A stretch of 12,724 nucleotides of DNA from Planctomycetes bacterium UBA1135 (lineage in GTDB: Bacteria > Planctomycetota > UBA1135), in contig DCAK01000080.1 in NCBI GenBank assembly GCA_002311925.1, positions 1 to 12,724 on the forward strand, in the 5' to 3' direction. A model generated the notes under the pieces. The model saw nothing but the letters and a program-made list of their open reading frames with translations, made no database searches and was not told where the DNA came from. Below, in pieces: positions 5,366 to 6,810 of the stretch. The position numbers were made by a program, and so were the translations under genes. How positions within the stretch are numbered: the first letter of the stretch is position 1; each line of letters starts with the position of its first letter.

Positions 5366-5536
5366 CTACAGGTCGGCGGGACGGAGGGTCTTGCGGCCGT
5401 TCGCGGCGGCGCGGGACTCGGCCTGGGCGATTGCCCTGCGGACGTAGTGGTCGAGGGCACCGTAAAAATCACCGGAAACATTGCAGCTGGTGGCAGCCGC
5501 CTTCGTGCGACTCTTGGAAATGATCAGGTCAGACAT
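5366..5536 (-). CDS. Bacterial histone-fold protein (single minimal fold)
   Basis: The 56-residue product resembles single-fold bacterial histones of the Bdellovibrio Bd0055 type and archaeal histones. It starts MSDLIISKSRTKAAA and has a central predicted helix (about 21-45, FYGALDHYVRRAIAQAESRAAA). It then has the hallmark NGRKTLRPADL (46-56): GRKT at 47-50 (loop 2 strand/DNA-contact motif) and Asp55, positioned for the Arg-Asp clamp of histone folds. The chain stops there, so the third helix is nearly absent, as in short bacterial histones. Charge is mildly basic (9 Lys/Arg, 5 Asp/Glu). The likely role is DNA binding as a dimer, as a nucleoid protein. ATG 5536 is chosen; a TTG at 5593 in frame would add 19 residues encoded by the hairpin-rich leader. 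An A-rich stretch AAGAAAAAAAC precedes the ATG instead of a clear ribosome binding site. The assignment is by remembered family pattern; a profile search would decide. Confidence 0.8.
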   Translation of the reverse strand: MSDLIISKSRTKAAATSCNVSGDFYGALDHYVRRAIAQAESRAAANGRKTLRPADL

Positions 5537-5553: not shown

Positions 5554-5567
5554 GCCGGGAAACCGGC
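5554..5567 (-). promoter_or_regulatory. Leader hairpin just upstream of the histone start
   Basis: Perfect inverted repeat GCCGG/CCGGC with a 4-nt loop (TTTC in the minus-strand transcript), 17 nt before the histone ATG. It leaves the A-rich segment next to the start unpaired and may protect the mRNA or keep the start accessible. Its function is inferred. Confidence 0.4.
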
Positions 5568-5590
5568 GGGGTGAGTAGGGGTTGATTGAA

Positions 5591-5617
5591 CAAGGTCGGG
5601 GTTCGTGCCCCGCCTTG
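5591..5617 (-). promoter_or_regulatory. Strong hairpin at the 5' end of the histone leader
   Basis: CAAGG and CGGGG pair with CCCCG and CCTTG around a 6-nt loop, with one bulged base at 5596 (10 bp in all). It lies at the predicted 5' end of the histone transcript, where a hairpin often stabilises an abundant mRNA. It could instead be an operator in the divergent promoter region; nothing in the sequence separates these. Confidence 0.4.
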
Positions 5618-5623
5618 CCCCCG

Positions 5624-5652
5624 ATTCCAACGAACCCGAAGCCCCCCGTCAA
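5624..5652 (-). promoter_or_regulatory. Candidate sigma70-type promoter for the histone gene
   Basis: On the minus strand TTGACG (5652-5647) is followed after 17 nt by TGGAAT (5629-5624). The -35 matches consensus at 5 of 6 bases and the -10 at 4 of 6. Transcription would start near 5617, giving a leader of about 80 nt. The spacing is ideal but the -10 is weak. Confidence 0.4.
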
Positions 5653-5669
5653 ATCGGAATCTGCTAAAT

Positions 5670-5699
5670 TTGGCCGTATTCCGGTGTTAATCGCATATT
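5670..5699 (+). promoter_or_regulatory. Weak candidate promoter for the unknown 366-residue gene
   Basis: TTGGCC (5670-5675), an 18-nt spacer and CATATT (5694-5699) each match consensus at 4 of 6 bases. The predicted start point near 5706 would leave only a few bases before the GTG at 5710, i.e. a nearly leaderless mRNA. No ribosome binding site is seen before that GTG, which agrees, but both boxes are weak. Confidence 0.25.
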
Positions 5700-5709
5700 C
5701 TCTCGGCCT

Positions 5710-6810
5710 GTGAACGTCCTCCTCGCCTCCATCATGTTGGCCATTCCCGGCCATTTTGTTCCATTTCAAACTCCGGCTGGGGACGGGGTGGACAGGATAT
5801 TGAATCGCTTGGAAGGGCTCTCCGTGGCGGACCAATCCGTTCTGGTTGAGGAAATCCAGGCAGGAGTTCTGGCCGGGAACCACCCCAGACTCGAGGCATT
5901 GCGCAAATTGGCTCAATGGGCTGAAAAGGAAGGGTTGGAAACCAAGCCCATCAACCTCGCCTATTTCCAGGCGGAAAAATACGCCCCCGCCTTGAAGCTG
6001 CGCACCAAGGTCATGGGAGGCAAGAATAGGAAGTGGAAGTCATTGAAGGCAAAGTACTTCCGTAATTCCGATATCCCTTGGACCGCAACAGAATGGGCCT
6101 GGGACCATGGACGAAATCGTCTTCGGTCGCGACTCGACCCGCTGGGCCCCAAGGAAGTCCTCCGCGCCCTCCTTGAAGGGCAGATCGACCCCGAAGGCCG
6201 CCTTGCCGCCATGGCGGAGGGCTTCCTCGACCACGACTCGGGAATGGACGCCGAAGCCTGGTATTTCGAGCACTGCTACCGGGATCGCGACGGCTTGGTC
6301 TTTTCTGGAATCCGCCTTTTCGACATGTGGGGCACGACCCGCGAAATCGAGATTTCAGATGTGGAGGCCATCGCCTGGCTGCGCCGAGTTGCGGGAGAAG
6401 AAAAATTGCGTTCCCCCATCCCAAAAAGGCTCCACGACCCCATTTATTCGCGCATTCATGATTCTTTCGAGCATTGGCGCGAATATCGGGAATTGAGGCG
6501 AGCCCTCGCCGTCCGCCTCGTGGACCCGGGAGGCGAGGTCCCTCCCGTGTGGCGTCCCGTCGTGAAACGCCTTGATCGAGCCTGGGTGGATTTGAAGGTG
6601 GACCCTGCGGAAATGAGGAAATTTCTTGAAGCCCACTCGAAGCGAGACCGTTTTCTCGTGGAGAGCAAACTCCTGGCCGAAGTCGTGGACGCCGAAATTT
6701 CCTCCGATGAGAGGGAGCCATGGCGGGAGGAAACGTTGTCCACTTGCGTGGCTCGACTGGCCCTGAAGGAAGTCCGTGCCCTTGGGCTCCTCGGCGCAGG
6801 AATTCGCTAA
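5710..6810 (+). CDS. Unrecognised 366-residue protein, possibly exported
   Basis: I do not recognise this protein. The N terminus (MNVLLASIMLAIPGHFVPF) is hydrophobic and could be a signal sequence, although it lacks the usual early Lys/Arg. The rest is hydrophilic, rich in charged residues, Trp and Arg, and looks largely helical; no zinc-binding, nucleotide-binding or hydrolase motif stands out. Tryptophan-rich patches occur at about 120-140 (PWTATEWAWDHGRNRLRSRL) and near 255-260 (HWREYREL). GTG 5710 is the first start after an in-frame TAA at 5665-5667; an ATG at 5734 is an alternative that would shorten the hydrophobic segment. Base composition and codon use look like those of its neighbours, and the long open frame supports a real gene. 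It is divergent from the histone gene and 46 bp upstream of alr. Confidence 0.75.
   Translation: MNVLLASIMLAIPGHFVPFQTPAGDGVDRILNRLEGLSVADQSVLVEEIQAGVLAGNHPRLEALRKLAQWAEKEGLETKPINLAYFQAEKYAPALKLRTKVMGGKNRKWKSLKAKYFRNSDIPWTATEWAWDHGRNRLRSRLDPLGPKEVLRALLEGQIDPEGRLAAMAEGFLDHDSGMDAEAWYFEHCYRDRDGLVFSGIRLFDMWGTTREIEISDVEAIAWLRRVAGEEKLRSPIPKRLHDPIYSRIHDSFEHWREYRELRRALAVRLVDPGGEVPPVWRPVVKRLDRAWVDLKVDPAEMRKFLEAHSKRDRFLVESKLLAEVVDAEISSDEREPWREETLSTCVARLALKEVRALGLLGAGIR

Follow-up and report, generated by a model that had tools for sequence, protein, structure and literature searches.

The window, a stretch of 12,724 nucleotides from the planctomycete assembly UBA1135 (contig DCAK01000080.1), carries on its minus strand a gene of 56 codons (positions 5366–5536; ATG at 5536–5534, stop codon at 5368–5366) that we assign to the face-to-face (FtF) class of histones, based on diagnostic residues, a structural model and profile comparison. 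We compared the genome of the window (G000) with 60 relatives, among them the other genome of its genus g1 (G001); the taxonomic family of the window (f1) is represented by 26 genomes, including these two, for which completeness is 80% (G000) and 73% (G001). The protein has 377 homologues at E ≤ 0.01, and among the 120 listed the closest, where the source is named, come from Planctomycetota. A scan of genome contigs likewise identified at least 49 loci, most of which bear Planctomycetota titles, with a few from other phyla. A histone match is present in 55 of the 61 genomes, own genome included, with one match per genome; the remaining six gave no match. Between G000 and G001 the gene shows a nonsynonymous divergence (dN) of 0.12 and a synonymous divergence (dS) of 2.6 (NG86), third codon positions hold 31 of the 45 differences, and dN/dS lies between about 0.05 (NG86) and 0.12 (YN00). 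These values indicate that the open reading frame is real and under purifying selection, and the frame ending in NGRKTLRPADL, which a preliminary description of the window had singled out, is thereby confirmed together with its presence in close relatives.

The histone gene has its strand to itself; it converges with tsaB and diverges from a gene for a 366-residue protein, in agreement with the monocistronic position between operons described previously. We compared the window with 16 regions of 12–13 kb, 12 from f1 and four from other families. The gene order folP-cdaA-ybbR-glmM-tsaB-histone-alr is kept, with the histone gene reversed. In all 12 regions of f1 the reversed gene is found between tsaB on one side and the 366-residue gene and alr on the other, with some 2–3 kb extra between histone and tsaB in G017 and G023. 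The genes glmM and ybbR are present in all 12, cdaA in 11 and folP in 10 of these regions, which end at 12–13 kb. In the other families, the histone gene is reversed beside tsaB, glmM, cdaA and folP in three of the four regions, the exception being G030. The locus shared across these regions indicates vertical inheritance of the histone gene, at one locus through an order of the Planctomycetota. The 366-residue protein (window positions 5710–6810, plus strand) has no match in Pfam, NCBIfam or PADLOC; its gene adjoins the histone gene in 12 of 12 f1 regions and was not detected in the four regions of other families. A link of this neighbor to defence was dropped for want of a PADLOC match.

Upstream of the gene, comparison with relatives identified a candidate promoter, TTGACG-17-TGGAAT, with its −35 element at positions 5647–5652 and its −10 element at 5624–5629 (both minus strand; the latter reads TGCAAT in G001). 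A sigma-70 scan of the upstream region of the window found no promoter, because the scan demands an A at the second position of the −10 box. The pattern TTGA-N2-N16..18-nRnAAT, written after the leaders were inspected, occurs in 20 of 24 family leaders (shuffled sequences: mean 0.33, maximum 3); as the leaders are related sequences, these and the following shuffle counts are not probabilities. The leader of the predicted transcript contains two hairpins: hairpin I, near its 5′ end (5590–5618, minus strand, from the minimum free energy fold), and hairpin II, GCCGGTTTCCCGGC (5554–5567, minus strand), 18–31 nucleotides upstream of the ATG. Of the 24 leaders, 19 have a stem of at least 5 pairs 12–50 nucleotides before the ATG, compared with a mean of 5.17 and a maximum of 11 among shuffles, and the sequences of these stems differ between genera. 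Stems corresponding to hairpin I are present in 16 of 24 leaders, which is not above shuffles (mean 10.75, maximum 19), so that its conservation as such appears weak. RNAalifold and a covariance model built on nine leaders recovered hairpin I alone, to which covariation contributed −0.13 kcal/mol; we relied on the shuffle test because the MAFFT alignment misplaces hairpin II. The leader of the window folds with a z-score of −3.49 against its own shuffles, within a range of −3.76 to 0.03 for 16 leaders, and a search of Rfam gave no family at gathering scores; whatever matched at E up to 10 stayed at chance level. Downstream of the gene lies an intrinsic terminator with a 15-pair stem followed by T6 (5351–5317, minus strand). 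The sister genome keeps the promoter region, the hairpin directly before the ATG and the terminator, the stem of the latter through paired changes. The candidate promoter, the structured leader and the strong terminator of the preliminary description thus hold, and on a plain reading they would form a constitutive promoter with a stabilizing leader. Just upstream of the −35 element (5653–5671, minus strand), the stretch AAATTTAGCAGATTCCGAT resembles AAATTCGGCATTTCCGC of many relatives and is possibly an UP element or a regulator site.

The encoded protein was previously described as a minimal single-fold bacterial histone of the Bd0055 type. An AlphaFold2 model of the single chain has the histone fold with a predicted local distance difference test (pLDDT) score of 92, with helices at residues 8–14 and 22–45 and a short turn at 53–55. 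The third helix is confined to these three residues and the chain ends at residue 56, so that the protein does not have the full-length α3 of nucleosomal archaeal histones (HMfB), and the minimal fold is borne out. The assignment to the Bd0055 type is not. FtF histones are defined by a torus-shaped homotetramer, with R48, N52, R54, T56, and D61 as profile residues (Schwab et al., 2024, PMC11390915); the same paper describes bacterial dimers such as HBb as lacking R48 and N52. The histone of the window has R42, N46, R48, T50, and D55, spaced as in the FtF profile and invariant in 56 of 56 aligned family members, which were chosen from the 120 listed homologues (of 377). In FtF histones a conserved arginine forms a salt bridge with the residue that follows the aspartate, via the carboxyl group of that residue (PMC11390915), and the chain of the window histone ends one residue beyond D55; the contact of the chain end in the FtF interface is our reading of that paper. 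A profile of the 56 members, compared with PDB sequences, matched the FtF histones HTkC (9f2c, E = 2.3e-11) and HLp (9qt0, E = 1.9e-7) strongly and HBb far more weakly (E = 0.027), and in the profile alignment HBb carries S and D at the positions of R42 and N46.

Comparison of folds alone does not separate the two classes. The top Foldseek match of the model is HLp (template modeling score 0.84–0.87, probability 1.00, E = 1.7e-3), and VIA-align gives a tie, with Z-scores of 8.3 for HBb and 8.4 for HLp. This near equality, and the RKTxxxxD motif common to the window histone and HBb, would suit a DNA-bending dimer like Bd0055/HBb of Bdellovibrio, acting without tails in an HU-like manner and resembling FtF histones merely through inherited residues. 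We regard such a dimer as improbable, since R42 and N46 are invariant in the family while the gene is under purifying selection, HBb has S and D at those two positions, and the chain end one residue past D55 matches, on our reading, the FtF interface of PMC11390915. The Bd0055 type was rejected on residues and profile scores, although the fold comparison ties. The same spacing of the FtF residues, and the difference of HBb, argue that the protein is by sequence an FtF α3 histone, and its class is corrected from the dimer type to the tetramer type; the tetramer itself is predicted from this assignment.

Histones of the family f1 usually carry a basic N-terminal tail, which the preliminary description, correct about the minimal histone, had overlooked along with two HU genes in the genome. 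In 22 of 22 f1 relatives with a placeable start (placed by eye), the tail is lysine- and alanine-rich, 16–56 residues long, and has a net charge of +4 to +26. Two further histone genes are truncated: that of G012 by a contig end, with a lysine-rich remainder, and that of G022 inside the fold, which keeps it outside this count. Both genomes of genus g1 lack the basic tail, with two residues before the fold (by our own cut) and a net charge of 0, and the whole chain has a net charge of +4 in the window histone versus +10 to +28 in tailed relatives. The metagenomic proteins P0002 and P0003, close to that of G000, likewise have no lysine-rich tail. Outside f1, tails are often shorter yet basic, with little or no tail in some cases (L081, L086, and L104; the distant L122 and L123; and the 56-residue proteins P0070 and P0081). 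PMC11390915 reports tails as widespread among bacterial FtF histones without being present in all, tailed and tailless forms both being known.

The tree built for 16 genomes from four flanking proteins groups G000 and G001 with support 1.0 inside the f1 sample, with tailed outgroups, and leaves the root of f1 poorly resolved (0.33). The simplest reading of these sequences is one loss of the tail in genus g1. Since the leader is retained as far as the ATG, deletion of the tail codons is the probable route. The two genomes, though of one genus, differ strongly in the G + C content of their sampled stretches (60.5% in G000, 49.4% in G001). Alternatively, the tail might have moved, the gene being a shortened copy with its tail made elsewhere or translated from a non-ATG codon upstream; in G000 the upstream frame is indeed open for 106 codons and contains an in-frame TTG that would give a protein of 75 residues. 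That frame is not lysine-rich, however, and in G001 an in-frame stop precedes the equivalent ATG by two codons, which makes the TTG start unlikely. A tailed relative, used as query against G000 and G001, matched the histone locus only, and no detached tail gene was found in these two genomes (80% and 73% complete), although low-complexity sequence limits the power of this kind of search. We consider a displaced tail very unlikely and retain the reading of a loss.

Genes of the HU family are present in all 61 genomes. Two were found in G000 (L037, 1001–1441, and L036, on contigs G000:C60 and G000:C18) and the corresponding loci of G001 are L038 and L039. The histone as sole packaging protein, as in Leptospira, was rejected on these grounds. 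The two HU genes, the occurrence of HU throughout and the six genomes without a histone match could also mean that HU does the packaging and that the histone is a minor, drifting relic, its tail missing for that reason. A relic of this kind has little to recommend it in view of the dN/dS of about 0.05 to 0.12 between G000 and G001 and the retained promoter, leader hairpin II and terminator.

Both HU proteins of the genus differ from those of relatives at the C-terminus, where we set the tail ends by a pattern of our own. HUa of G000 has 57 extra C-terminal residues with a net charge of −11; in G001 the HUa sequence runs into an assembly gap, followed by an acidic stretch in another frame. In all 23 of the other f1 genomes in which HUa was found, no more than about 7 residues follow the fold (14 measured by script, at 0–2 residues, and nine by eye; G008 has only HUb). 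The HUb tail counts 88 residues (net −17) in G000 and 90 (net −16) in G001, against 13–42 residues with a net charge of +1 to −4 in 21 other f1 genomes; two further f1 tails, read by eye, have about 30 residues, and G018 has only HUa. Outside f1, HUb of G029 has a tail of 32 residues, net −7. With HUa of G000 as query, a protein search yielded 400 matches, of which 120 are listed. Among the best 15, 13 have an acidic tail of 46–61 residues with a net charge of −9 to −16, and 12 of these 13 end in SSYWG, SSNYWG, or NSSWV; the other two of the 15 (P0132 and P0136) lack such a tail, but their ends look broken and their contigs measure just 746 and 764 bases. An acidic tail is absent from all of the next 51 matches examined (five were unparsed but are only 89–93 residues long). 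The two HUb sequences have SPF or SPW near their end. That the HU tails differ in sequence while keeping length, charge and aromatic tip suggests selection.

We considered several general causes for these changes. We rejected the idea that the HU tails reflect acidification of the whole proteome, as the sampled proteomes show no comparable shift: the median isoelectric point of open reading frames of at least 200 residues is 5.46 in G000 (n = 123), 5.39 in G001 (n = 91), 5.47 in G017 (n = 242), and 5.80 in G009 (n = 163). In reciprocal best pairs, the charge per residue of G000 differs by −0.0085 from G017 (16 pairs) and by −0.0152 from G009 (20 pairs), compared to −0.0053 for G017 versus G009 (24 pairs); G000 is thus slightly more acidic, and a small general shift may exist. 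None of those 16 and 20 pairs shows a gain of a C-terminal tail of at least 30 residues in G000. A general loss of lysine tails is not seen either, as topoisomerase I of G000 retains its lysine tail (the G001 copy is a fragment); this protein (L182, 772–3723) has a lysine-rich C-terminal tail in many f1 genomes, much like the tails of their histones. Loss of tail-modifying enzymes was set aside because their distribution is too patchy and the genomes too incomplete (Hist_deacetyl in 12 and SIR2 in 15 of 26 f1 genomes, neither in the two of g1). The one tailless histone tested outside the phylum (L081, Krumholzibacteriota) occurs with three HU genes without long acidic tails, so that tailless histone and acidic HU are seen together in one lineage only. 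Within that lineage, three tails changed with the same sign of charge, which is suggestive of linked evolution.

Taken as a whole, the data are probably best explained by an FtF α3 histone that forms tetramers, is encoded in its own conserved unit and has lost its basic tail specifically in this genus. Expressed on its own from a sigma-70-like promoter, the histone would form two handshake dimers that meet at R42, N46 and the chain end and so make up a ring-shaped tetramer, which may wrap about 60 bp of DNA, like HLp. We infer that it is abundant. The stretch lost would be the basic tail that joined the start codon to the fold, while the leader stayed in place. A charge of +4 instead of +10 to +28 per chain would lead to weaker bridging and condensation, and the window histone may therefore compact or bridge DNA less than the histones of its cousins.

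More tentatively, and in our view less likely than not, the genus may have reversed the electrostatics of its chromatin in one linked change, in which the loss of the histone tail (about +20 per chain) was accompanied by the gain of long acidic, probably disordered C-terminal tails on both HU proteins, which would then act in the manner of eukaryotic HMGB proteins or bacterial SSB. In SSB, the C-terminal tip works as a docking peptide. The aromatic tip of the HU tails could perhaps serve in the same way, whereas their acidic part would shield the HU DNA-binding face, as described for the acidic tails of HMG-box proteins (PMC4207994). If true, HU would have a self-shielding tail, bind DNA dynamically and recruit partners by its tip, on an open chromatin of lightly charged histones. 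The histone itself is of a known kind; what is new is the lead given by opposite tail changes of histone and HU within a single lineage. In a limited literature search, neither the loss of a tail from an otherwise tailed family of bacterial histones nor an acidic tail on HU was reported. In the literature found, the role of bacterial histone tails is untested, and the genus offers a natural experiment: the same gene, locus and promoter, where all 22 of the readable f1 relatives have a tail and the one genus with a shift of HU in the same charge direction has none. It thereby bears on what histone tails do outside eukaryotes.

Among known systems, the bacterial FtF histone HLp of Leptospira perolatii (PDB 9qt0-9qt2; PMC12701072) shares with the window histone the single fold, the one-turn third helix and the R/N/R/T/D residues, with 32–34% identity in structural alignment, and its tetramer is described to wrap about 60 bp of DNA (PMC12701072). 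Leptospira is reported to be without HU, whereas the genome of the window has two HU genes. HTkC of Thermococcus kodakarensis (PDB 9f2c; PMC11390915) is the best sequence match (E = 6.6e-4 for the single sequence, 2.3e-11 for the profile), and its chain of 59 residues is likewise without a long tail. It differs in being archaeal and in having a glutamate, with the arginine kept, where the window histone has asparagine, and the two are not orthologs that share a locus. HBb/Bd0055 of Bdellovibrio (PMC10627809, PMC11317129) has the same minimal fold and the RKTxxxxD motif, but is of the dimer type and without the R and N of FtF histones. The window histone also has close counterparts in the tailed FtF histones of Planctomycetota (e.g., P0005 and P0009), some of which are labeled histone H3/H4 or DUF1931 in source records. 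Their fold is approximately 80% identical to that of the window histone and in f1 they occupy the same locus behind the same promoter, but they carry the basic N-terminal tail (16–56 residues in f1) that is absent from the histone of the window.
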